A DNA stretch of 64,000 nucleotides from Microbacterium forte (GTDB lineage Bacteria > Actinomycetota > Actinomycetes > Actinomycetales > Microbacteriaceae), in contig NZ_CP116871.1 in NCBI RefSeq assembly GCF_031885415.1, positions 3,224,001 to 3,288,000 of the forward strand, read 5' to 3'. A program made the position numbers and the translations under genes. Position 1 is the stretch's first letter. Every line of letters begins with the position of its first letter. Shown piece after piece: positions 10,892 through 63,995 of this stretch. The notes beneath the pieces are model-generated. The model was not told where the DNA came from. It worked only from the letters and a program-made list of their open reading frames with translations, and did no database searches.

Positions 10892-11785
10892 TCAGCCGTC
10901 CAGGCCGAGCGACTGGAAGGGGATGCCGCGTACGACGCGCTTCCACGGGTGCTCGCCGAGCGACCACAGCAGCTTCGCGTCGAGGTCGAGAGCGAGATCC
11001 TCGCAGCCGACGGGCAGGGGCACCCGATCGCGCACCAGGGCGTCCCGGCTGCCGGTCCACAGCGCGCCGGGGCGCATGCCGTCGGACTGCGAGACGAAGT
11101 GCCGGTCGCCCCAGCGTGCCGCTCCCTGCATCTGCGTGATGCCGGGGGTGAAGCGGCTCTCTTCGCGGAAGTCATCGTCATCGGCGTCGGGCACCGTGAA
11201 CTCCGCGATCCGCCCCGCGTCGTCTTTCGTGTACTCGCCGATGAGCACTCGCCGCAGTGGCGTGCCGTCGTCGTCGAACACGCGACCCAGATATGAGCAC
11301 CGCAGCTCGATCGGGTGCACGCGGGTGCGCACCGCGACGAGTGCGGAGGCGCGCAGGCCTCGACCGCTCGCACCGGCGATGCGTCGCGCCTCGGCGCCCC
11401 GCACCCGGCGGATGTCGGCGAGATCGAACTCCCAGATGCCGCGACCGGTCGCCGCGACGAACAGCCGATCGTCGAACCACGCGAGGCCGCCGGCGTGGAT
11501 CGGGGCGGGCTGCAGCTCTCCGCCCTCGTCGATGGCGAGCAGCACGTCGAGATGGCGAGAGCGCTCGAGGTCGACGAACGCGACGCGGGACGCCAGGTGG
11601 TGACCGTCGAGCCGCTGACGGAACCAGCTGACAGCGAGTGTGCGGCGCCCGTGCCACAGACCGAGATCGACGCCCTGCGGATACCAGCGGCGCGTCCAGG
11701 TGCGAGCGCTCAGCCACCGCAGGTCGACCGTGGCGCGGCGCTTCTGGCGCACCGGGCGCCAGGTGGTTCCGAACGGCCAGAGCAT
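10892..11785 (-). CDS. Hypothetical protein, possible beta-propeller
   Basis: The 297-residue product is soluble and lacks a signal peptide. It shows repeated strand-turn blocks (WFDDRLFVAATGRGIWEFDLADIRRV, GDRHFVSQSDGM, LDAKLLWSLGEH) that suggest a propeller-like fold, but no family motif is recognised. An in-frame GTG at 11836 would add 17 residues; I prefer ATG 11785, which has GACGAT six bases upstream. It lies divergent from the nonulosonic-acid locus and may be unrelated to it. Confidence 0.6.
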   Translation of the reverse strand: MLWPFGTTWRPVRQKRRATVDLRWLSARTWTRRWYPQGVDLGLWHGRRTLAVSWFRQRLDGHHLASRVAFVDLERSRHLDVLLAIDEGGELQPAPIHAGGLAWFDDRLFVAATGRGIWEFDLADIRRVRGAEARRIAGASGRGLRASALVAVRTRVHPIELRCSYLGRVFDDDGTPLRRVLIGEYTKDDAGRIAEFTVPDADDDDFREESRFTPGITQMQGAARWGDRHFVSQSDGMRPGALWTGSRDALVRDRVPLPVGCEDLALDLDAKLLWSLGEHPWKRVVRGIPFQSLGLDG

Positions 11786-11939
11786 GCACCCATCGTCGCC
11801 GATCGTCGGGCCAGGTGCGAATCCGGCAGAGGGCACCGGTGGGTCGGCCGATATCGCGTCACCGTGCGTTCACCCGCCGGCCCCCGACCGGCAAGGAGCG
11901 CCTGCGAGCATTCCGAGACCGTCGACCCGGGGGAGTTCT

Positions 11940-12920
11940 GTGCGCACACCGCTCGTCACCGTCATCCTGCCCGCGAAAGACGCAGGCGCCTACATCGGTA
12001 CGACGCTCGAGACGCTGACACGGCAGTTCGACGACCCTGCCTCGCTCAAGCTCGTGGCGATCGACGACGGCTCGCGCGATGACACCGGCACGCTCATGAG
12101 GCGATACGCCGAGCGGTTCCCGCACGCCGAGGTCATCGTCAACCCTCGGCCGAAAGGGCTCGCGAGTGCCCGCAACCAGGGGCTCGAGCATGTCGAGGGC
12201 GACGCCTTCTGCTTCCTCGACGGAGACGACTGGATGCAGCCCCAGCGACTCTCGGTGCTGGCCCGGCGGCTGAACGAGCTGGGCTGCGACTTCCTCCGCA
12301 CCGACCACGTCACGGTGAAGACCGGCGTGCGCACCCTCGTGCCGGCGCCGTACCCGTGGCGGGAGACCGTCGGTTCGCCCCGTGAGGCGATCCTGCCCGA
12401 CGACGAGCCGACCATGGTCGACTACCCGTTCGCGTGGGCCGGGATCATGCACCGACGCCTGATCGACCAAGGGCTCGCGGGTTTCACACCGGGCCTCTTC
12501 ACCGCCGAGGATCGGCCGTGGATCTGGCGGCTGCACCTGCAGGCCCGCTCGTTCGCGGTGGTCGACGCCCCGGCCCTGCTCTACCGCCGCGGGGTGTCGA
12601 CATCGCTCACCCAGGTGCGCGACCGGCGACAGCTCGACTTCGTGCGCGCGATGGGCGAGGTGCTCGACATCGTCGAGGCGGATGCCGAGTCTGACCGGTT
12701 CCTGCCGAAGGCGGTGTGGAGCGTGATGGCGCTCTCGTCGCGCCACCTCGTGCGGTCGAGGAGGATGACCCCGTCGCTGCGCGGCGAGATGCGTGCCGGC
12801 CTGCGCGCATTGCTCGGTCGTCTGCCTGAACGAGAGGCATCGGCGGTGCTGTCGCGTCTCGACGGACCCCGGCGCCGCGTGCTGGCGCCGCTGCTGCGCA
12901 CGGTCGGGATCGCCGCATGA
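11940..12920 (+). CDS. Family 2 glycosyltransferase
   Basis: This 326-residue GT-A enzyme opens with the GT2 core (VTVILPAKDAGAYIGTTLE, then VAIDDGSRDDT) and has the metal-binding FLDGDDW near residue 98. It lacks membrane helices, so it acts at the cytoplasmic face on a nucleotide sugar. The frame is open upstream, but GTG 11940 has GGGGGAG at the right distance and begins at the conserved fold. It is the first gene of the nonulosonic-acid locus; its stop overlaps the next start (ATGA at 12917), so translation is coupled. It may prime or extend the polymer. Confidence 0.88.
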   Translation: MRTPLVTVILPAKDAGAYIGTTLETLTRQFDDPASLKLVAIDDGSRDDTGTLMRRYAERFPHAEVIVNPRPKGLASARNQGLEHVEGDAFCFLDGDDWMQPQRLSVLARRLNELGCDFLRTDHVTVKTGVRTLVPAPYPWRETVGSPREAILPDDEPTMVDYPFAWAGIMHRRLIDQGLAGFTPGLFTAEDRPWIWRLHLQARSFAVVDAPALLYRRGVSTSLTQVRDRRQLDFVRAMGEVLDIVEADAESDRFLPKAVWSVMALSSRHLVRSRRMTPSLRGEMRAGLRALLGRLPEREASAVLSRLDGPRRRVLAPLLRTVGIAA

Positions 12921-14275
12921 CGCAGCTCTTCGCGGTGCACAGCGCCTACGGGCTGGCCACCGCAGCCGCAGCGCTCGACGGCGGATTGCTCGGCGACCAC
13001 GGTGAGCGCATCCTCGTTCCGTTCGTGTCGTCGCGAGTGCCCGAGACATCGGTGAGCATCGCCGCCGACCCCGCACTGGCGAGCCTCCGCGACAGGTTCG
13101 ACCGCATCGAAGATCTCGACGCGATGCTCGGCCCCCTGCATCCGAGCTCGTGGAAGCCCCATGCTTCGGACCTGCCGCTGCTGCGCCGCCTGCTGCTCCG
13201 GGCGTGGAACATCGACCCCGGCGACCTCGAACTGCTCGTGCAGAGCCCGCAGATCGCCCCGGCGCGCACCCTGATGCTGCTCTTCCCGCACGCGCGACTC
13301 ACGATCATCGGCGACGGGCTGATGACGTACTCGCCGATGCGGGTGCGGATGCCGCACACGGTGACTGCTCGGATCGGTCGCGTCGTGCACGCCGACGTGG
13401 TGCCGGGACTGACACCGCTGGTGGGTGCGCCCACCGCGACGCCGGTGCCGGTCTCACCCGACCTGTTCCGCGCGGTGCTCTGCGAGACCGCCGCGGCGGT
13501 CGACGACACGGCAGAGCTCGACAGCGCTCTCGATGGGGAGTCGACCGTGCTCGTGCTCGGGCAGTACCTCTCGGCTCTCGGACTGGTCAGCGAGGGCGAG
13601 GAGATCGCGCTGCAGAAGGAGATGATCGACCGCGCGGCGAGCCGGCGACCGCAGCACATCGTCTTCAAACCGCACCCCGCCGCCCCGCCTCGACTGAGCG
13701 ACGCTCTGCGCGACCGGGCACGGGTGCACGGCATCGACTTCCGCGAGTACCGCGGCGCGCTCGCCGCAGAGATGCTGGCCGAACGCATCGACGCGACAGC
13801 CGTCATCGCCGGGTTCTCGACCGCCCTGCCGACCGTGCAGGCGCTGTTCGGCCGCGAGATCGATGCGGTCGGGGCAGACACCGTGCTGGCGCGGCTGACT
13901 CCGTATGAGAACAGCAACCGAGTGCCGGCGACGATCGTCGATGCGCTCACCCGCGCAGACTCCCCGTATCGCGACCCCGAGCGCATGCAGCTGCTGATCG
14001 ACGCGGTCGGCTATGCCATGCAGCCCGTCGTCGCCGGGCACCTCCGCGGTCGGGCCGAGCAGCTGCTCAGCGGCATCCGTCCCTCTGATCGAGATCGGTA
14101 CTTCGCCCCCGAGAGGCTGGCCGAGCTGCGCCTCCCGGGAGCCCCGCGCGAGACGGCCGTGCGTCGAGCGCTGCGCCCGGTCGGCGGCATCGGCCGGGTC
14201 GAACAGGCGAGGCTCACAGTGCTCGCAGCGCGGCGCAGACTCGCCCGCGCATGGCGGGTGCTCAGAGGGCGATGA
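12917..14275 (+). CDS. Polysialyltransferase-like glycosyltransferase
   Basis: The 452-residue protein shows the three motifs shared by bacterial sialyltransferases: an acidic-Gly motif GDG (132-134) in IIGDGLMTYSP, the HP motif KPHP (251-254), and a Ser/Thr motif GFSTALPT (299-306). This places it in the alpha-2,8-polysialyltransferase (POLYST) group, which transfers CMP-activated nonulosonic acid to a growing chain. A basic C-terminal helix (about 425-452) could bind the membrane. ATG 12917 overlaps the upstream stop, and its own stop overlaps the start of the CMP-synthetase gene, which would supply its donor. The exact sugar and linkage are inference. Confidence 0.82.
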   Translation: MTQLFAVHSAYGLATAAAALDGGLLGDHGERILVPFVSSRVPETSVSIAADPALASLRDRFDRIEDLDAMLGPLHPSSWKPHASDLPLLRRLLLRAWNIDPGDLELLVQSPQIAPARTLMLLFPHARLTIIGDGLMTYSPMRVRMPHTVTARIGRVVHADVVPGLTPLVGAPTATPVPVSPDLFRAVLCETAAAVDDTAELDSALDGESTVLVLGQYLSALGLVSEGEEIALQKEMIDRAASRRPQHIVFKPHPAAPPRLSDALRDRARVHGIDFREYRGALAAEMLAERIDATAVIAGFSTALPTVQALFGREIDAVGADTVLARLTPYENSNRVPATIVDALTRADSPYRDPERMQLLIDAVGYAMQPVVAGHLRGRAEQLLSGIRPSDRDRYFAPERLAELRLPGAPRETAVRRALRPVGGIGRVEQARLTVLAARRRLARAWRVLRGR

Positions 14276-15531
14276 GCAGGATGACAGCGATGACGGGCGA
14301 CGACGGCGAGGGGACGAGCGACATGAGCGCGGAACAGCAGACGGCAGCAGCGGGCAGGGTCGTCGCGATCATCCCGGCGCGAGGCGGGTCTAAGGGCGTG
14401 CCGCGCAAGAACCTGCGACGCGTCGGCGGGGTGCCGCTCATCGAACGGGCCGTGCGCACCGCGTCGGAGACCGACGGCATCGACCTCGTCGTCGTCTCGA
14501 CCGATGACGATGAGATCGCCGCGGTGAGCGAGGCAGCCGGGGCGAGAGTCGTGCGGCGACCGGCGGACATCTCCGGCGACACGGCCTCGTCGGAGTCCGC
14601 GATCCTGCATGCGCTCGACGTGCTCGAAGGCGAGGGGGAGCCGGCCGAGGTGATCGCGTTCCTGCAGGCGACCTCGCCGTTCATCGCCCAGGACGCCCTG
14701 TCGAGTGCGGTGCGCGAGGTGCGCGAGCGCAGGGCAGACAGCGTGTTCGCCGCCCACGAGACCTATGGATTCCTGTGGTCGCGCGGCCGCCGAGGAGAAT
14801 CGAGCGGCGAAGGGCGAGCGGATGCCGGCGAGGCCGTCGCACTCAACCACGATGCCGCGCATCGCCCGCGGCGTCAGGATCGCGAGCCGCACTTCCGCGA
14901 GACGGGGGCGTTCTACGTGTTCCGCGCCGACGGCTTCCGCGAGGCGAGGCATCGCTTCTTCGGCCGCATCCGCATCGCCGAGGTGCCCGAGTGGACGGCG
15001 ATCGAAATCGACGACGAACAGCAGCTGCGCATCGCCCGCGCGCTCGCCGCCCTCCACGAGAGCCCTGAGCGGGTGCCGGTGCGAGCGATCGTCACCGATT
15101 TCGATGGGGTGCACACCGACGACACCGCGACCGTCGACGCCGACGGCGTCGAACGCGTGCGGGTGAGCCGCGAGGACGGCATGGGGGTGTCGTTGCTGCG
15201 GCGCGCCGGCATCCCGATGCTCATCCTCTCGACCGAGGTCAACGCCGTCGTGCGCGCTCGGGCAGAGAAACTCCGCGTGCCGGTGCTGCACGGCATCGAC
15301 GACAAGGAGTCGGCGCTGCGGGGGTGGGCGGAGGAGGTCGGCATCCCGCTCGCCGACATCGCGTACCTCGGCAACGACGTCAACGATCTCCCGGCCCTGC
15401 GCATCGTCGGCTGGCCGGTCGCGGTGGCCGACGCGCATCCCCTCGTGCTGGAGGCGGCCCGTGTCGTGCTGAGCCGCGCCGGCGGACATGGTGCCGTCCG
15501 CGAGCTGATCGAACGGGTGTTGCCCGCCTGA
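14272..15531 (+). CDS. CMP-nonulosonate synthetase fused to KdsC-like HAD phosphatase
   Basis: This is a two-domain protein of 419 residues. Domain 1 (about 29-260) is a cytidylyltransferase with the CMP-sialate synthetase signature IPARGGSKGVPRKN (34-47). Domain 2 (about 270-419) is a HAD phosphatase of the KdsC/Kdn-9-phosphatase type, with the catalytic aspartates in DFDG (276-279), a Ser-Thr motif near 320, and GNDVNDLP (367-374). Together they would remove the 9-phosphate of a nonulosonic acid and activate the free sugar with CTP. ATG 14272 overlaps the previous stop; an alternative ATG at 14323 has a GAGGGG site. Animal CMAS shows a similar domain order. The insertion near residues 172-205 is rich in Arg and Gly. 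Confidence 0.87.
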   Translation: MSRMTAMTGDDGEGTSDMSAEQQTAAAGRVVAIIPARGGSKGVPRKNLRRVGGVPLIERAVRTASETDGIDLVVVSTDDDEIAAVSEAAGARVVRRPADISGDTASSESAILHALDVLEGEGEPAEVIAFLQATSPFIAQDALSSAVREVRERRADSVFAAHETYGFLWSRGRRGESSGEGRADAGEAVALNHDAAHRPRRQDREPHFRETGAFYVFRADGFREARHRFFGRIRIAEVPEWTAIEIDDEQQLRIARALAALHESPERVPVRAIVTDFDGVHTDDTATVDADGVERVRVSREDGMGVSLLRRAGIPMLILSTEVNAVVRARAEKLRVPVLHGIDDKESALRGWAEEVGIPLADIAYLGNDVNDLPALRIVGWPVAVADAHPLVLEAARVVLSRAGGHGAVRELIERVLPA

Positions 15532-15616
15532 CCGGTGCCGGTAACCCTCCTGTCGTGTGGCGTTCATTCTCGGCGCGTACTCAGGGGAGAAGGCCATTTC
15601 GACGACCGGAGGAACC

Positions 15617-16489
15617 ATGACTGTCAGCATCGGCTCACGCGTGATCGGCGGCGGCCACCCCGCCTATGTCATCGCGGAGATCGGCCTCAACCACAACGGC
15701 GACGTCGACATCGCCAAGCGTCTGATCGACGTCGCGGCGAAGGCGGGAGCCGACGCGGTGAAGTTCCAGAAGCGCACTCCCGAGATCTCCACCCCCGAGC
15801 ACATGCGCGATGTCCCGCGCGAGACGCCGTGGGGCACCATGAGCTACCTCGACTACCGTCGCCGCGTCGAGTTCGGCCGCGACGAGTACATCGCCATCGG
15901 CGACCACGCCACGATGCTCGGACTCGACTGGTTCGCGTCCCCCTGGGACGTGCCCAGCGTCGAGTTCCTCGAAGACCTCAACGTCGTGGCTCACAAGGTC
16001 GCCTCGGCCAGCCTCACCGACACCGAGCTGCTCCTCGCGCTGCGCGAGACCGGCAAGCCGGTCATCCTCTCGACCGGCATGTCGACGATCGAGCAGATCG
16101 ACCGCGCTCTGTCCACGCTCGGCACCGACCGCGTCGTGCTCATGCACGCCACGTCGACCTATCCGCTCGAGCCCGAGGAGGCCAACCTCCGCGCGATCGC
16201 CACGCTGCGCGACCGCTACCCCGGAGTGCCGGTCGGCTACTCCGGCCACGAGCGCGGTCTGCAGATCTCTCTCGCCGCCGTCGCGATCGGCGCGGTCGCC
16301 GTCGAACGCCACATCACGCTCGACCGCACGATGTGGGGCTCCGACCATGCGGCATCCCTCGAGCCCACCGGCCTCGAGCACCTCGTGCGTGACATCCGTG
16401 TGATCGAGATGGCTCTGGGCGACGGAGTCAAGCGCGTGTTCGAGAGCGAGCGCGCGCCCATGGCGAAGCTGCGGCGCATCTCCGCATGA
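15617..16489 (+). CDS. NeuB-family nonulosonic acid synthase lacking the SAF domain
   Basis: The 290-residue TIM barrel condenses phosphoenolpyruvate with a hexosamine or hexose (phosphate). Conserved elements are AEIGLNHNGD (about 20-29), VKFQKR, STGMST, HATSTYPLEPEEANL and SGHERGLQIS, then GSDHAASLEP. It stops at KLRRIS, exactly where family members of about 340-360 residues continue into the C-terminal SAF (antifreeze-like) domain that caps the active site. There is no frameshift or remnant downstream: the next gene overlaps its stop. A GGAGG lies upstream of ATG 15617. With no NeuC-type epimerase nearby, a Kdn-type product from mannose 6-phosphate is plausible but unproven. Confidence 0.87.
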   Translation: MTVSIGSRVIGGGHPAYVIAEIGLNHNGDVDIAKRLIDVAAKAGADAVKFQKRTPEISTPEHMRDVPRETPWGTMSYLDYRRRVEFGRDEYIAIGDHATMLGLDWFASPWDVPSVEFLEDLNVVAHKVASASLTDTELLLALRETGKPVILSTGMSTIEQIDRALSTLGTDRVVLMHATSTYPLEPEEANLRAIATLRDRYPGVPVGYSGHERGLQISLAAVAIGAVAVERHITLDRTMWGSDHAASLEPTGLEHLVRDIRVIEMALGDGVKRVFESERAPMAKLRRISA

Positions 16490-17892
16490 GCGAACCGGGC
16501 ACGAGCAGGTCGGGCGCGCTGCGGGTCGTCGCGATCGCCGACGCCGACTCGTTCGTGAAGTGGTCGGCGTCGCTGCTCGGCAGTGTGCCCGGCATCCGTC
16601 CGCATCTGCTGCTGGTGCAGACGCCGCTGACCGCGAGCGTCGATCAGCAGCGCACGGCGCTGGCCGGCACCGGGATGCTGTCAGACGACGTCACCCGCAT
16701 CGGCTTCGCGCAGGCTGCCGCGTGGCTCGAGGGACAGCGTCCCGACGTCGTCCTGCTCGCCGGGCGCGGGCCGTTCGTGCGCCTGATGGGGCGCCTGGTC
16801 GACACGCTCTCGCACCGCCCGGTGGTCGTAGCGGGTCTGCCGGGAATGGCGATCCCCGCCCAGCGGGGCGCCCTCGAGTACCGCCGCCATGCCGACCTGC
16901 TCGTGGTGCACTCCCACCGTGAGGAACGCGCGTTCGCCGAGCTGGGCCACCGGATCGGCGTGCAGGTGCCGACGGCGCTGGCCACATTGCCGTTCGCGCG
17001 ATCGCGATCGCGTATGCTCGCCGCTGACCGGGCCCGGGCGCTCGGCGCAGACGCAGGCCACCCGGCAGGAACCCTCATCGCCGATCGTCCTCCGACTCCG
17101 AGCGCCGTGCGGATGCCGGCGACCGACATCGTGTTCGCGGCGCAGGCCCTGGTGCCGGTCGGACGGGACGAACGCGCCGAGATCGCCGCCACCCTCGTCA
17201 GGGCGGCCGAGGCCGACCCGAATCGTCGAGTCGTCGTCAAGCTGCGCTCGCGCCCAGGGGAGTCCGAGACCCACCTCGAGCGCGATCCGTATCTCGAGCT
17301 GCTGCCTGCCCGGCGTCCCGACAACCTCGTGGTCTCCTACTCCTCGATGGCTGCCGCGCTCTCGACGGCGGCCGGACTCGTGACAGTCAGCTCGACCGCG
17401 GCCGTCGAAGCCGTGGCGCTCGGTGTGCCTGTGATCGCGCTCGATTCGTTCGGCGTCAGCAAGAGCCTGCTCAACACCGTCTTCGTCGGCAGTGGGCTGC
17501 TCGGCGGGCGCAACGAGGTCGTGGCCGGTCGATTCCGGCATCCGCACCCCGCCTGGCTGCGAGACAACTACTTCCACCCGGCGGCCGAGTCGACCTGGTG
17601 GAACCACGTCGAGCAGCTGGTCGCTCTGCGCCGGGCCGGTGCTCTGCCGGCGAAGCGCGTGCCGGCAGCCCGAGGCGGCGCGCTTCACGAGGCGTGGCAC
17701 CGCGCGAGCGTGCTCGGCTCGAAGGACCGCACCCTCGGCGGCGCTGCTGCTCTCGCCGTGGGGGTGCCTGCGACGGCGCTCCTCGCTGCTCTGCGCCGCG
17801 GCCGCGCGTCCGGCGACGGCGGCACCTGGGCCGACGCGACGACCGACATCACCCTCGAGCCGAACCCGTTCCACGACTCGATCCGGCGCTGA
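16486..17892 (+). CDS. DUF6716 putative glycosyltransferase
   Basis: The 468-residue protein begins with an overlap (ATGA) on the NeuB-like gene. It has a GT-B-like layout: an N-terminal Rossmann-like part (VVLLAGRGPFVRLMGRLVDTL) and a C-terminal donor half with VVVKLRSRP and VTVSSTAAVEAVALGVPVIALDSFG. The last block resembles the Ser/Thr motif of sialyltransferases. No signal or firm membrane segment is visible, except a weakly hydrophobic stretch near 420. It probably adds or modifies the acidic sugar of the same polymer. The DUF6716 name is from memory and no activity is established. Confidence 0.75.
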   Translation: MSEPGTSRSGALRVVAIADADSFVKWSASLLGSVPGIRPHLLLVQTPLTASVDQQRTALAGTGMLSDDVTRIGFAQAAAWLEGQRPDVVLLAGRGPFVRLMGRLVDTLSHRPVVVAGLPGMAIPAQRGALEYRRHADLLVVHSHREERAFAELGHRIGVQVPTALATLPFARSRSRMLAADRARALGADAGHPAGTLIADRPPTPSAVRMPATDIVFAAQALVPVGRDERAEIAATLVRAAEADPNRRVVVKLRSRPGESETHLERDPYLELLPARRPDNLVVSYSSMAAALSTAAGLVTVSSTAAVEAVALGVPVIALDSFGVSKSLLNTVFVGSGLLGGRNEVVAGRFRHPHPAWLRDNYFHPAAESTWWNHVEQLVALRRAGALPAKRVPAARGGALHEAWHRASVLGSKDRTLGGAAALAVGVPATALLAALRRGRASGDGGTWADATTDITLEPNPFHDSIRR

Positions 17893-58219: not shown

Positions 58220-59533
58220 ATGACTGTACGAGTACATCTGGACGGAGTCGTGGGCGACTTCCTCAAAGGCTGGGCCGTCGATGACGACGCTCCGAGCGTC
58301 CCGGTGGTCGTCGAGGTATTCGCGGAGTCCCGGCGGCTAGGCTCAGTCGTAGCGGACAGAGAGAGAAGAGATCTGGCGACCGAGGAGGGGCGCAGCCCTT
58401 CGATCGGGTTTCGATTCGTGCTGCCTGCCTCGCTGCTCACCGGTGATGAGGAGCAGTTCACCGTGCGAGCCGTGGTGGCGACTGAGGGACAGGCGACGGC
58501 CACTCGCACTCTCGCGACGACCCGGTTGGCGTTCGCGACACCGGCGGGCAAGCCGTGGGTTCTGGCATCGGATGACATTCCCAGCGTGGAGGGTGATGTC
58601 GACGACGAACTCCGGAGCATTCTCGCGTGTGCGAGTGCCGGCGAGATCGACGAAGCGATCGGAATGGCGCGCGCGAAGTTTCGGTTGAACCGTGACCTGT
58701 TCGGCGTGGATACCGGACTGGTCGAAGCCGTGTCGCGCCACACCGGCGTGAAGACATTCGAGCAGCTGATGACCGACCGGCGCCATGAGTGGTTCGAAAG
58801 CGGCAACCATTCCTTCTGGCAGAGTCGGCTGGAGAAGAAGGACGCGATGCACGCGTTCGCACGTGAGAACCTCGTGGAGATTCCACGACAGATCGCACAT
58901 TTCTCGGACCCGGAGGAGCTGCTGCAGCTCGACCTTCCGCAGCGCTACGTGGCCAAGCCGGACGGTCTGGCATCGGCGAAGGGAGTCTTCGCCGTATCCC
59001 GCGGTGTCAACGTGTTCACCGGCAAGCCCATCTCACCGGATCGCATCGTGGCGAACTGGCAGAAGCTCGCGAGCGAGACGGACCGGGTCGATATGTACAT
59101 CGTCGAGGAGTTCGTCGCGGACCGTTTCGCTCCGGAAGCGAACGTCATACCCCTTGACTACAAGTTCTACGTGTTCCGCGGCATCGCCGGGTTCCTCGAA
59201 GTGTTCGACCGCAACTACCCCGGACCATCCAGACGGCCCTACTCGGTCACGTGGCGCCCTCTGCCGCACCCGCTGGAGTTGGGCCGGACCCTGGGCAACG
59301 CGATGCGCGAGCCCGACAATCTGAGCGAAATGATCAGCGTCGCGGAGCGGCTGGGCAGTGAGGTGGGAGCGTTCTGTCGCGTCGATCTCTTCAACACACC
59401 GAGAGGCCCGGTCCTCGGGGAGATCACCATCTTGCCGGCGAACGGAAAGAACCGAACCGCCTATGCGAATGTGATCACCCAGCAGGCGTACATCGTGTTC
59501 GAGGACCAGGAGCTCTGGTCCACCGACGCGTGA
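58220..59533 (+). CDS. TupA-like ATP-grasp protein
   Basis: The 437-residue protein has an N-terminal beta-rich domain (about 1-115), then a TupA-like ATP-grasp domain (about 190-430), with RYVAKPDGLASAKGVF and YIVEEFVADRF typical of ATP-grasp ligases. TupA acts in teichuronopeptide assembly, so this enzyme probably joins an amino acid or other acid to a surface polymer. A -10-like TAGTCT (58174-58179) lies 40 bases before the ATG. Codon bias is slightly lower in GC than that of the housekeeping neighbours. Confidence 0.8.
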   Translation: MTVRVHLDGVVGDFLKGWAVDDDAPSVPVVVEVFAESRRLGSVVADRERRDLATEEGRSPSIGFRFVLPASLLTGDEEQFTVRAVVATEGQATATRTLATTRLAFATPAGKPWVLASDDIPSVEGDVDDELRSILACASAGEIDEAIGMARAKFRLNRDLFGVDTGLVEAVSRHTGVKTFEQLMTDRRHEWFESGNHSFWQSRLEKKDAMHAFARENLVEIPRQIAHFSDPEELLQLDLPQRYVAKPDGLASAKGVFAVSRGVNVFTGKPISPDRIVANWQKLASETDRVDMYIVEEFVADRFAPEANVIPLDYKFYVFRGIAGFLEVFDRNYPGPSRRPYSVTWRPLPHPLELGRTLGNAMREPDNLSEMISVAERLGSEVGAFCRVDLFNTPRGPVLGEITILPANGKNRTAYANVITQQAYIVFEDQELWSTDA

Positions 59534-59668
59534 TGCACTGAGCGGGCGCATCCCCCGCCGGGCGGACACGAAACACGACCGACACTCAACGTGGTTAGGA
59601 TTGATCCGACCGTCCAACGGCCTCGATCGGGTGCCGACGCTGAGCTGTGAAGCGAGAGTAATACTGGT

Positions 59669-62260
59669 ATGCAATCCCCTGTTCTCCTGCCGACTCCTCA
59701 TGTGTCGATCATCATCCCCATGTACAACGACGAGGAATGGATCGCCGCGGCAGTCGAAAGCTGCATGCGTCAGACGCTGAGTGCGATCGAGATCATCTGT
59801 GTAGACGATGCTTCCACGGACCGCAGCCGAGAGATCGTCGAGCGTTACCAGGCCGTCGACCCGCGCATCCGCCTCGTTTCCTTCGACCGCAATCGCTCGG
59901 CCTTCCAGGCTCGACGAGCGGGCATCATGGCCGCGACGGCTCCGTATGTGCTGTTCCTCGACGGTGACGACGAGCTCGCTCCGGATGCCGCTGAGAAGGC
60001 CACGGCTGAGGCGCAGAAGACGAGTGCGGATCTCGTCGGCTTCGGTGTCGAGGTCGTGACTCCAGACGGGCGAAGCGGCGGGGGCTTCGAGAAGCGGCTG
60101 CAGCCATACCACGAGCTCGTCGAGAACGATGCCATCCTTCCGAGTCTCTTCCCCGTCGGAGTGCCCGCGCGCGGGCAGATCTGGCGCTACCTCTTTCACG
60201 TCGGGCTGCTCCGTGTCGCCTATGCGCAGCTCTCACCCGACCTCGAGCTCTACCGAGCCAATGATCTGCCCATCGCATATCTTGCGATCGCGGGGGCGCA
60301 GCGGTACGTCTCACTGCCGGCGAAGCTGTACCGCTACAACTTCGGCCGAGGAATCAGCGGACACCGCGTCGAGGAGGCTTCGCAGTTCGAGTTCTACCTG
60401 CGCGCGATCGACTCGATCGACAGCATCGCGCCGGCGGTGCGCGAGCAGGCACGCAAGCGGATCGACCCGGATCCCCTCATGGACAGCTATGCGTCCGCCA
60501 GGTTGTCGGTGATCGGCAACCTGCTCAACTACCTGATCAACAACACAGCGGAGGGCGTTCGGGCCGACTGCCTCGGGCTGCTGCGCGAGCGCGTCTCCGA
60601 AGAGGATGTGGTTCTGGCGGCGACGGGGTTCTGCCCCGGGGCGCTCGCGCTCCTGGCGCAGAGCAGCGACCGGATCGAGCTCGGCAGCCGCCCGATCCGC
60701 AGCGTACTGCTGACGACGAAGTCGCTCACGACAGGCGGGGTGTCCGGCGTTCTCCTGACGCAGGCCAGAGTTCTCCTGGACGCAGGATACGACGTCACGA
60801 TCGCAGCGCGACGGCCGGGCAGCTCGGCGGACGCAGTCCCGTACGGCGCGAAGTTCGTCGAGATCGGCGAGGGGAGCCTCCTCGCACAGGTCACTCAATG
60901 GGGCGAGATCTGTCGTCGGGAGTCCATCGATCTCGTGATCGACCATCAGATCCTCTACAGCAGGGATTGGCCTGCGTACGCGCTCATCGCGCGTTCACTG
61001 GGGGCTGCGACCATCGGATGGGTCCACAACTTCGCTGCCAGGCCGGTCTACGACCTCAACGACCTCACCTCGCTGATGACCGATCATCTCGGCGCGCTCG
61101 CTCAGCTCATCACCCTCTCACCGCTCGACGTCGCATTCTGGAAGCTTCGTGGCATTCGACATGTGGCGTATCTCCCGAATCCGCCGTCTCCGATGATCCT
61201 GGAGGCGCCGATCGAGAACATCGTCAAGACGGCGCCTCAGGGACGCCCGGTGAGACTCCTCTGGTGGGGGCGTCTCGAACAGCACACGAAGCAGGTCCGC
61301 CAACTTCTGCTCGTGGCGGCAGAACTCCGGAAGCTCGGCGTCGCCTTCGAGATGAAGATCATCGGGCCGGGGTGGGCGGAGACGGAACCGCACATGCTCG
61401 AGGCAGAGGCCCGCAAGCTCGGGCTGGAGGAGGTGTCGGTCCCGGGACCGTTGTACGGCGAGCATCTGCTCTCCGCCATCGATGCCGCGGATATCTTCGT
61501 CAACACCAGCGTCATCGAGGGATATCCCCTGACGATTCTCGAGGCTCAGGCGCGCGGCCTTCCCGTGGTCATGTACGACATGCCCTGGCTGGCTCTCGCT
61601 GCCGACAACGGGGGGATCGTGAGCGTTCCTCAGGCCACCCCGGCGGCGTTCGCACGTGAGGTCGTCGCGATCGTCGAGAGTCCCGATCGCTACGACGAGC
61701 TCTCCCATGAATCCCTGGCCGTGGCCAAGAGGAAGCGCGACTTCGATTTCGGTCAGACGTACCGTCAGCTCGTCGAAGGAGAGCTGCCTGCTGCCTTCTC
61801 ACCTGAGCCCACGATCGACGATGCACAACGCCTGATCGATCTGCTCATCTTCTTCACCGAGCGCAACGCCGGTCTCAGGGCGAAGAAGACGGCGGCAGTC
61901 GCGGCCGCGAGGAAGGCCACCGCAGAAGCGGCGGCGACCAAGAAGGCGGCCGCAGTCGCAGCCAAGGCGGCTGCGAGGAAAGCAGCGAGGATCGCCGCCA
62001 AGGCCGCGGAGAAGAGCGCGACGAGACAGGCGGGGGAGCGGACTCAGAGTGCGACACCGACTGCGGCGAGGATCTCACGGCAGTCGACGAGTCCGTCGCC
62101 GTCCGCTCAGGCGTCGACGCGAGCGAAGACCGCCCCTCCGGTACAACCGGATCCGCTGCTCGTCGGCATGATCCGGCCGCTCGGGCGCGTGGTCCTGAAG
62201 GTCATGCCGGGCTTGCGGCCGACGGCGCACAAGTTCAACAAGATGGTTCGAGAACGCTGA
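59669..62260 (+). CDS. Two-domain glycosyltransferase (GT2 + GT4) with Lys/Ala-rich tail
   Basis: The 863-residue protein joins a family 2 domain (about 8-250: SIIIPMYNDEEWIAAAVES, VDDASTDRS, FLDGDDEL) to a family 4 GT-B domain (about 345-715: TTGGVSGVLLTQARVLLDAGYDV, donor motif EGYPLTILEAQARGLPVV). A Lys/Ala-rich helical tail (about 730-790) and a Ser/Pro-rich linker end in a short basic segment, perhaps a membrane or polyanion contact. It would add two sugars in sequence to a surface polymer. A TAGGAT (59596-59601) could be its -10. Confidence 0.82.
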   Translation: MQSPVLLPTPHVSIIIPMYNDEEWIAAAVESCMRQTLSAIEIICVDDASTDRSREIVERYQAVDPRIRLVSFDRNRSAFQARRAGIMAATAPYVLFLDGDDELAPDAAEKATAEAQKTSADLVGFGVEVVTPDGRSGGGFEKRLQPYHELVENDAILPSLFPVGVPARGQIWRYLFHVGLLRVAYAQLSPDLELYRANDLPIAYLAIAGAQRYVSLPAKLYRYNFGRGISGHRVEEASQFEFYLRAIDSIDSIAPAVREQARKRIDPDPLMDSYASARLSVIGNLLNYLINNTAEGVRADCLGLLRERVSEEDVVLAATGFCPGALALLAQSSDRIELGSRPIRSVLLTTKSLTTGGVSGVLLTQARVLLDAGYDVTIAARRPGSSADAVPYGAKFVEIGEGSLLAQVTQWGEICRRESIDLVIDHQILYSRDWPAYALIARSLGAATIGWVHNFAARPVYDLNDLTSLMTDHLGALAQLITLSPLDVAFWKLRGIRHVAYLPNPPSPMILEAPIENIVKTAPQGRPVRLLWWGRLEQHTKQVRQLLLVAAELRKLGVAFEMKIIGPGWAETEPHMLEAEARKLGLEEVSVPGPLYGEHLLSAIDAADIFVNTSVIEGYPLTILEAQARGLPVVMYDMPWLALAADNGGIVSVPQATPAAFAREVVAIVESPDRYDELSHESLAVAKRKRDFDFGQTYRQLVEGELPAAFSPEPTIDDAQRLIDLLIFFTERNAGLRAKKTAAVAAARKATAEAAATKKAAAVAAKAAARKAARIAAKAAEKSATRQAGERTQSATPTAARISRQSTSPSPSAQASTRAKTAPPVQPDPLLVGMIRPLGRVVLKVMPGLRPTAHKFNKMVRER

Positions 62261-62326
62261 CCGCTGCCTGATCGGAGAACCGACCGGTGCTCCGATCAGG
62301 ACTGGAGCACCTGTCGGCTGGTGGCG

Positions 62327-62845
62327 CTACGACGATGTGTCGGTCGGTTCCGTCGAGGCAGTGCGGGCGGACTCTCCTGATCGATCGTCGACCGGCAGAT
62401 CGCGGATGAACCGAGCGGGGACCCCGCCGTAGAGGGTGTTGTCCGGAACGTCCTTGGTCACCATCGCGCCGGCGGCGATGATGCATCCCTCGCCGATCGT
62501 GACGCCGCCCAATACCGTCACCGATGCCCCGATCCATGTTCCTGCGCCGATCACGATCGGATCGAATCGGGACTTGCCCGCGCGGCGGGAAGGCGGGCCC
62601 ACTTCGTGAGTGTCCGAGATGAGGCGAACGAAGGGGCCGATCCGCACCCCGTCGCCGATGGACGTGTTGGGGCGGATGTACGCGTCTCTGTTGATGAAGA
62701 CGTTGTTCCCGATCGTGACCGGGCCGAGCATTTCGGTGCCTCGGTAGAAGTTCGCCCCGTCGCCGATCGTGATCGGGCGATCGTCGCTGTGGGAGAAAGA
62801 GACGCGCTGATGGATCTTGGATCGGTCGCCGACGGTCAACACCAT
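62327..62845 (-). CDS. Hexapeptide-repeat acyltransferase
   Basis: The 172-residue protein is a left-handed beta-helix acyltransferase of the LbetaH/xenobiotic-acetyltransferase class: repeated hexapeptides (IGDGANF, IGNNVFI, IGDGVRIG) and the terminal IGEGCIIAAGAMVTKDVPDNTLYGG with the CoA-site loop. Its catalytic His is probably in DTHEVG. It would O-acetylate a sugar. ATG 62845, not 62908, is chosen because TATACT (62852-62857) is exactly six bases upstream. It is divergent in function but adjacent to the glycosyltransferase and pyruvyl-transferase genes. Confidence 0.85.
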   Translation of the reverse strand: MVLTVGDRSKIHQRVSFSHSDDRPITIGDGANFYRGTEMLGPVTIGNNVFINRDAYIRPNTSIGDGVRIGPFVRLISDTHEVGPPSRRAGKSRFDPIVIGAGTWIGASVTVLGGVTIGEGCIIAAGAMVTKDVPDNTLYGGVPARFIRDLPVDDRSGESARTASTEPTDTSS

Positions 62846-62948
62846 TAGTGCAGTATATTGGCTCGCCACCTGCAGGGCGCCCGTCGCTGTCCTCCTGCCG
62901 CTCTCCATCCGGGGCCCGTCGGCGATGGGAACGGTGAGAAGGGCCGTG

Positions 62949-63995
62949 TCAGTCGGCGTCGATGACGTCGTGGATTCGCTTGGTCAGCGCTGCCAACTCA
63001 TCGCGCGCGGTGTCGATCGACGGCGCGAGCAGAGGGAGGTGCTCGTCGAGCCGTGCGGAGAACTCATCGATCTGGTCGTAGCGCCCGACGAGCTCGCCGA
63101 GACCGGCGGTGGCCAGGAGGCGATGGATCTTCTGCGGGTCGGCGCCCGAGCCGATGGGATATGCTCCCTCGGATGCCGCGATGATGAGGCCGTGCGCTCG
63201 ATCGCTGACCACGAATCGGGACATCTTGAACGCGCCGCGTGCATGCGCGTCGAGAGTGGCATGGTCCATGCTGGGAGGCATCAGGTACTCGCCGCCGAGT
63301 TCCTCGGCGAGACGGACCGCCCGAGGTGCGTCGCGCGAGACCTGAGCGAGAGTGACGATCCGCGTCGACGTGCGCGAAGCCAGATCGCGGACGGATGCGA
63401 TCCATCGCGACCCCGGCCACGGACGATCGAATCGGAGCGTCACCGCGAGCAGAGGACGCTCATCCGCCGGCGCCCATTGGCTCGTCGGCGTTCCGAGGGA
63501 ATACGCCCAATCGGGTGCGACGTCGCCGAATCCTGCGGCGTCACGAGAAGGGGTATCGCGCCAGGAGACGATCGCCGCGTTGCGAAGAACATCGTCGAAC
63601 TCCACTTGCTCGATCGACGAGGGGTCCTTGATCCCGAAACCGGCCGCGATGAACACGCCGCCGGCGTCGACGGTGCGGCGCAGCTCGCGGGTGCGGTGGA
63701 TGTTCGGGAACAGTCCTGGCGGCGGATTGATCTCTCCCGCGTTGAGGAAGTGAACTCCCCGACGCGCGGCATCACCGGCGGCCAGCCAGGTCGGCCGGTG
63801 CGTGTAGATGCGGTCGCGCCTGCCGAGCGCGAAGCCGGAGGTGTAGTCGGGGGTGGCTGCACCGAAGTAGATGTGCAGGCGCCGACCTTCGCCGCGAGCG
63901 GCGTTGAGATAAGCGAGCCGGAGGGCCGAGTCGCCGAGGTTGTCGTCCTGCCCCGCCAGGTGGAAGAAGAGATCCTGGGGTCTGTTGGCGCTCAT
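62949..63995 (-). CDS. Polysaccharide pyruvyl transferase family protein (start at window edge)
   Basis: The protein has about 348 residues and the fold of the PS_pyruv_trans family (WcaK/CsaB type), which adds pyruvate ketals to surface sugars. Hallmarks are DNLGDSALR (about 17-25), NAGEI, SWRDTPSRD and SDRAHGLIIAASEG near the C terminus. Such ketals give negative charge and can anchor S-layer proteins. ATG 63995 and GTG 63998 are both possible, and upstream sequence is outside the window, so the true start may be longer. Confidence 0.8.
   Translation of the reverse strand: MSANRPQDLFFHLAGQDDNLGDSALRLAYLNAARGEGRRLHIYFGAATPDYTSGFALGRRDRIYTHRPTWLAAGDAARRGVHFLNAGEINPPPGLFPNIHRTRELRRTVDAGGVFIAAGFGIKDPSSIEQVEFDDVLRNAAIVSWRDTPSRDAAGFGDVAPDWAYSLGTPTSQWAPADERPLLAVTLRFDRPWPGSRWIASVRDLASRTSTRIVTLAQVSRDAPRAVRLAEELGGEYLMPPSMDHATLDAHARGAFKMSRFVVSDRAHGLIIAASEGAYPIGSGADPQKIHRLLATAGLGELVGRYDQIDEFSARLDEHLPLLAPSIDTARDELAALTKRIHDVIDAD

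Follow-up and report, generated by a model that had tools for sequence, protein, structure and literature searches.

A five-gene operon of Microbacterium forte, lying at 11940-17892 on the forward strand of the 64,000-nucleotide stretch analysed here (the window), probably supplies a phosphate-free wall glycopolymer with its nonulosonic acid, which in the most likely case is the Kdn (2-keto-3-deoxy-D-glycero-D-galacto-nononic acid) of a teichulosonic acid. We give this reading a probability of about 0.65. It is built on gene content, homology, co-occurrence, the fold classes of two predicted models, the motifs of a HAD phosphatase domain and a conserved upstream repeat. The genome forms a single contig of 3.75 Mb.

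The operon opens with a family 2 glycosyltransferase (GT2; 11940-12920; PF00535, 91 bits), whose GTG start sits within a longer open reading frame (11640-12920) and is kept in relatives. It is followed on the same strand by a polysialyltransferase-family glycosyltransferase (pST; 12917-14275; PF07388, 60.3 bits for a gathering cut-off of 23.3) and by a fusion protein (14272-15531) in which a cytidine monophosphate (CMP)-nonulosonate synthetase (about 14362-14895; PF02348) precedes a KdsC/Kdn-9-phosphatase-like HAD domain (about 15079-15522; PF08282). A NeuB-family synthase lacking the SAF domain (15617-16489; PF03102, 264 bits, cut-off 22.1) and DUF6716 (16486-17892; PF20471, 408 bits, cut-off 27), a GT-B-fold protein, complete the row. 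These coordinates and Pfam matches confirm the five genes of a preliminary description of the stretch, and their content supports its view of a locus for making, activating and transferring a sialic-type sugar. The ATGA overlaps by which it linked most of the genes (12917, 14272 and 16486) also follow from the gene coordinates. The fusion gene (ATG 14272) and neuB do not overlap, the likelier NeuB start being ATG 15617, some 85 nt downstream, in a frame that reaches back to GTG 15557. Scans for promoters and terminators were uninformative.

The teichulosonic-acid cluster of S. coelicolor, SCO4873-SCO4882, was reportedly described by Ostash et al. in 2014. In the available excerpts of the published accounts, it is controlled by PhoP (PMC13011467) and the Streptomyces wall polymer is a copolymer of galactose and Kdn (PMC11481543, PMC7831098). 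An excerpted table lists SCO4877 as hypothetical, SCO4878 as a glycosyltransferase, SCO4879 as conserved hypothetical, SCO4880 as a transferase and SCO4881 as polysaccharide biosynthesis; NeuB is SCO4881 in the printed extracts, and the Planobispora orthologue of SCO4878 is given as a GT2. The remark of the preliminary description on the poor definition of such genes is therefore out of date, since SCO4873-SCO4882 are assigned in print and fit the five window genes by order and annotation.

Six loci, called Streptomyces here from a DUF6716 identical to one named Streptomyces, all carry homologues of four of the genes, with identities of 64-66% for NeuB, 47-51% for the synthetase/HAD fusion, 36-41% for pST and 28-38% for DUF6716. 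The GT2 (42-45% identical) adjoins pST in four of them, all five genes being present together in these and all but GT2 in the other two. DUF6716, the fusion and NeuB stand in a row in each locus, with a divergent pST. The Streptomyces cluster is likewise provided with PHO-box-like repeats, weaker ones, between its divergent halves. Whereas it is made of two divergent units, the M. forte locus is one co-directional operon, and its surroundings lack genes for an M20 peptidase or a Bmp/ABC transporter. The two also differ by a small glycosyltransferase-like protein resembling SCO4882 (f10, with the motif WVESPLQLL), recognised after NeuB in at least five of the six Streptomyces loci and without a match in the M. 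forte genome in a profile search. This absence counts against the equation of the two loci, as do the matching of SCO numbers to window genes, which was made by gene order and annotation and not by S. coelicolor sequence, and an excerpted table that assigns "sialic acid synthase" to the Planobispora orthologue of SCO4880 and not of SCO4881. Judged from the homologies, the window locus is of the teichulosonic-acid type, ordinary in kind and rearranged into one operon.

The distribution of the genes separates a core from accessory parts. Among 120 Microbacteriaceae genomes, NeuB (at least 69% identical) and DUF6716 were each found in 32 and together in 31, a grouping beyond chance given this overlap (Fisher p 2e-26, a guide only, the genomes being related); the exceptions are G030 with NeuB only and G066 with DUF6716 only. 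In 21/27 Microbacteriaceae NeuB loci, CMP-synthetase, NeuB and DUF6716 follow one another on a single strand, with neighbours that vary from locus to locus, as judged by eye from gene calls that, in all compared loci, come from a home-made codon model. Off this pattern, DUF6716 lies nearby on the other strand in L056 and L061, one gene of the row was not called in L050, L055 and L057, and L058, from G030, holds NeuB and the fusion without DUF6716. In 296 actinobacterial genomes, DUF6716 exceeded its cut-off in 12, exactly the 12 with a NeuB at least 64% identical to that of the window, while G324 (62%) and G227 (60%) have NeuB without it. The pST was present in only five of the 120 Microbacteriaceae genomes, all NeuB-bearing; of 149 Microbacterium genomes, 51 carry it, each of them also among the 89 with a window-type NeuB. 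In G062 and G097, pST and GT2 occur together, away from NeuB. As for f10, it matched strongly in 10/120 Microbacteriaceae genomes (12 matches in total, two of these with E values of 3e-4 to 5e-4); NeuB is present in each of the ten and pST in none. The protein is perhaps accessory, since 22 of the 32 NeuB-bearing genomes miss it. By this distribution, CMP-synthetase, NeuB and DUF6716 are the core, and GT2 with pST an optional module. Directly upstream of one NeuB core operon, we also observed a predicted protein of 2042 aa (L048:10512-16640, reverse strand).

The optional module bears on the kind of polymer that is made. By both Z and Foldseek E, the best match of the predicted pST model is the solved bacterial polysialyltransferase 5wc6/5wcn. 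The two share the fold and the HP motif (H253-P254, invariant in 11/11), which has a role in bacterial polysialyltransferases; their identity is only 13%, and the acidic-acidic-Gly motif that we take to mark these enzymes reads GDG in the window protein. A profile of pST searched against solved sequences gave one unrelated, non-significant match (E 0.58), and near-identical proteins occur in Microbacterium, for example in M. foliorum (98%). The GT2 is a possible transferase for the neutral sugar of the repeat. As for the polymerisation of a sialic-type sugar foreseen in the preliminary description, pST is accessory, and a homopolymer need not follow because the Streptomyces polymer contains galactose as well as Kdn.

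A capsule, an exopolysaccharide or a glycolipid or glycoprotein decoration bearing nonulosonic acid, rather than a wall polymer, seems an unlikely product. Known polysialyltransferases make capsules, and a Pfam search of the five proteins gave no match to LCP ligase, flippase, ABC exporter or lipid-carrier enzyme families, which would suit such a glycan. Against it, the excerpts on Streptomyces tie the homologous cluster to wall teichulosonic acid, and the PHO-box-like control discussed below fits the replacement of a phosphate-rich wall polymer. A large polysaccharide region begins at 58250-63995 of the window and extends in L218, with a TupA-like ATP-grasp protein, long glycosyltransferase-like proteins and an ABC-2 exporter pair; it is a candidate partner for polymer export.

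The identity of the sugar depends first on the synthase. The window NeuB has no match to the C-terminal SAF domain (PF08666) and stops after the barrel. Among its relatives (matches of at least 100 bits that span over 230 residues), those at least 50% identical measure 279-312 aa in 46/46 distinct sequences, and the others at least 337 aa in 95/95. A tree of 82 rows (46 SAF-less sequences and the window, under-50% rows from loci below L130, 12 chosen of 80 Bacteroidota loci and four solved chains) places the SAF-less NeuB in one clade (100/99), separated from PseI and from NmNeuB by a 92/87 branch. In this tree the nearest large synthase clade, joined to it amid long branches (94/76), consists of Bacteroidota NeuB encoded beside a Kdn-9-phosphate phosphatase, plus one actinobacterial row. 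The Bacteroides Kdn pathway (BT1713 phosphatase and BT1714 synthase, represented by locus L136, whose phosphatase is 99% identical) holds the same trio of synthase, KdsC-like phosphatase and cytidylyltransferase, but its phosphatase is a separate gene and its synthase, about 35% identical, has a SAF domain. In the accessible part of its description, Arg314 of NmNeuB, located in the SAF domain, contacts N-acetylmannosamine (ManNAc) (PMC6795526). We nevertheless rejected the absence of the domain as proof that no N-acetyl substrate is used, and its loss is not a mark of Kdn, because the Bacteroides Kdn-type synthase has it. NeuB of another kind was seen in other Microbacteriaceae loci (L063, L064 and L065): 43-46% identical, part of long fused proteins that the gene calls put at about 750 aa, and set in a conserved different cluster.

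The KdsC-like phosphatase announced in the preliminary description is indeed present, with intact DFDGVHT and GNDVND motifs. The top phosphatase model of this HAD domain in NCBIfam is the KDN-9-P phosphatase NF058599 (106.3 bits, cut-off 180), ahead of KdsC (90 bits, cut-off 208), and its best solved match is 3mmz. The solved matches of the fusion protein include 1qwj and 3ewi. We take these to be mouse structures, of the animal-type CMP-sialate synthetase with a C-terminal HAD. The domain order is thus that of the animal enzyme, whose HAD is inactive, whereas the window domain has its motifs.

The absence of NeuC holds as described earlier, for no PF02350 (NeuC/WecB) protein was found in the genome, whereas the same search was positive in 11 of 14 named control genomes. 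A phosphomannose isomerase is present. The earlier argument that these features follow the logic of Kdn synthesis stands in part. It is favoured by the lack of NeuC, the KdsC-like phosphatase and the homology to Kdn-linked Streptomyces genes, and Kdn is a plausible product on these grounds. On the other side, NanE is present, over its cut-off, for which reason we rejected "no NeuC means Kdn" as a proof. Further points weaken the case for Kdn. The HAD domain and NeuB fall under every NCBIfam equivalog cut-off, and no protein passes a Kdn-specific one. The top NCBIfam model is PseF for the synthetase part (128 bits, cut-off 205.7) and TIGR03569, N-acetylneuraminate synthase, for NeuB (262.3 bits, cut-off 399.65; model matched at 2-274 of 329). 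The 94/76 join lies under the support limit of the tool, in a midpoint-rooted tree where long branches meet, and the Bacteroides enzyme keeps its SAF domain. Lastly, among 38 related loci with a NeuB at least 60% identical, scored by eye with L111 and L112 (50-52%) set aside, both HAD motifs were seen in 24, motif I only in five (motif IV not found) and no HAD in the synthetase frame in seven, two being unclear. The missing HAD of some relatives does not exclude Kdn, because in the excerpts on P. parvum the Kdn-9-P synthase makes only Kdn-9-P, from mannose 6-phosphate, and a dedicated phosphatase was not found (PMC6200933).

The same machinery could make another sugar, the synthase taking ManNAc 6-phosphate, supplied by NanE from N-acetylglucosamine 6-phosphate, and the HAD domain dephosphorylating the resulting N-acetylneuraminic acid 9-phosphate as in animals, to give a polymer with N-acetylneuraminic acid or an N-acyl sugar. 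The 9-phosphate logic suits mannose 6-phosphate and ManNAc 6-phosphate alike, and the leading score of TIGR03569 speaks for this option. So does NanE itself, next to a NanA-type (DHDPS-family) lyase, a ROK kinase and a glucosamine-6-phosphate isomerase. These genes, however, lie with transporter genes at 2.68 Mb in what is, by its make-up, a probable sialic-acid catabolic operon (L217, 2672000-2689000 of the contig). With the Streptomyces homologues associated with Kdn in the excerpted literature, and a synthase devoid of the domain whose Arg314 contacts ManNAc in NmNeuB, an argument that the Bacteroides SAF domain weakens, we hold the N-acyl product to be rather improbable. Pseudaminic acid was rejected as the product, a separate locus being available for it near 1.10 Mb (L067, 1093500-1113000), with PseB and a SAF-bearing PseI over cut-off, PseC slightly and a PseG-PseH fusion clearly below; it also holds a cytidylyltransferase-like gene below cut-off. 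From these gene sets, two nonulosonic-acid pathways seem to coexist in this genome.

Immediately upstream of the operon, at 11857-11885 of the forward strand and hence outside the range 11940-17892 first described, lie three 11-nt direct repeat units (CGTCACC-GTGC-GTTCACC-CGCC-GGCCCCC) beginning 83 nt 5' of the GT2 start. They resemble the PHO box, whose consensus we take to be GTTCACC-N4-GTTCACC, and are the only match with at most two mismatches in the window, where 0.4 was expected. The other side of this intergenic region is taken by a divergent gene (10892-11785, reverse strand) for which Pfam gave no match at E 0.01. In the 30 loci scanned, from the 51 pST-bearing Microbacterium genomes, a match with at most three mismatches occurred within 250 nt 5' of GT2 in all (two with one, 18 with two and 10 with three mismatches; 3.2% in shuffles), always in the same orientation, at a distance of 41-85 nt from the gene and with conserved columns that coincide with the repeats. 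NeuB operons were compared with other genes of the same loci, the 40 operons including that of the window, their first gene being set by a crude rule and related loci not being independent: at most three mismatches were found before 21/40 operons versus 22/231 genes (p 2e-9), and at most two before 15/40 versus 9/231 (p 1e-8).

The repeat could be a chance motif or that of another regulator, leaving the operon free of phosphate control. In favour of this view, the motif is not rare, as the 22/231 control genes show; in Streptomyces the best intergenic form has four mismatches in all six loci (e.g. GTTCACC..CGCCACG..GTTCACC), and none reaches three. Moreover, the genome holds 54 matches with at most two mismatches, and most of those placed, among the 30 checked for surroundings, are inside genes. 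The constancy of strand and position in the 30 Microbacterium loci opposes it, as does the reversed pattern, which gave eight matches versus 54 genome-wide, 0/30 in the Microbacterium loci, and 1/40 and 0/40 before NeuB operons at up to three and two mismatches. Seven genomic matches have at most one mismatch: three are inside genes by gene call, one is found ahead of an ABC binding protein and one ahead of an MFS protein, and the others include the window operon and pstS (TIGR00975, 205.7 bits, cut-off 205), where the match is 90 nt upstream. An LTD/phytase-like protein of 880 aa with Lamin Tail Domains (L285:3454-6096, reverse strand), likely involved in phosphate scavenging, is encoded downstream of a weaker triple repeat. 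Altogether, a motif unrelated to phosphate appears improbable, and phosphate control of the operon would agree with the model printed for S. coelicolor and Planobispora, in which, as excerpted, a phosphate-free wall polymer (there called teichuronic acid) is made under phosphate limitation.

DUF6716, a name that we found in no paper of the literature searched, is probably a CMP-nonulosonate-dependent glycosyltransferase. Its predicted model has a GT-B fold closest to UDP-N-acetylglucosamine 2-epimerases; 5wc6 is not among the 50 matches listed for it, which excludes nothing. Profile comparisons gave no convincing relation of DUF6716 or f10 to pST (hhalign probabilities of 2% and 19%), and a search against solved sequences returned only one epimerase stretch, non-significant (E 0.82). 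Outside Actinobacteria, the family exceeded its cut-off in E. coli, one of the control genomes. The GDR, GGE and YHP signatures have catalytic roles in NeuC. DUF6716 might be a hidden NeuC-like epimerase that provides the synthase with ManNAc, and its almost strict association with NeuB would then be explained. This is very unlikely, as the stretches of DUF6716 aligned with these signatures read otherwise (AGRGPF, VAGLPG and FAAQAL), PF02350 does not match, the two copies flanking the core in L107 and L108 suit transferases, and a NeuC route would yield an unphosphorylated sugar and leave the HAD domain without a task.

The scheme proposed here for the Kdn polymer is inferred throughout, from the nature of the sugar and each single reaction to the acceptor, the wall attachment and the binding of PhoP. 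The SAF-less NeuB would condense mannose 6-phosphate with phosphoenolpyruvate to Kdn-9-phosphate, from which the HAD domain would release Kdn, and the synthetase domain of the same protein would activate it with cytidine triphosphate to CMP-Kdn. DUF6716 would be the core CMP-Kdn transferase, and the chain would grow as GT2 and pST add Kdn and a neutral sugar, which in Streptomyces is galactose. At low phosphate, PhoP would turn the operon on through the upstream PHO box, and the phosphate-free polymer would replace the phosphate-rich wall polymer.

A broader proposal, which we hold tentatively and at somewhat less than even odds, is that the three-gene module of SAF-less Kdn-9-P synthase, CMP-Kdn synthetase and DUF6716, the latter a new NeuC-fold-derived family of CMP-nonulosonate transferases, is a widespread actinobacterial phosphate-starvation wall switch. 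With a conserved PHO box in control, Microbacteriaceae and Streptomyces would put a Kdn polymer in the place of their phosphate-rich wall polymer, and the GT2-pST and f10 modules would tailor the chain in each lineage. What is new is the place of the locus, its division into core and accessory parts, the clade of synthases without SAF domain and an operator of phosphate type that is conserved; no gene-level account of phosphate-responsive wall remodelling in Microbacteriaceae was found in the open-licence literature of PubMed Central. The constant core of teichulosonic-acid loci can thereby be told apart from the optional parts, a function is proposed for DUF6716, and a clade of synthases is defined whose choice of substrate can be measured. 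If the reading is true, it would give the Microbacteriaceae a testable system of phosphate-responsive wall remodelling.

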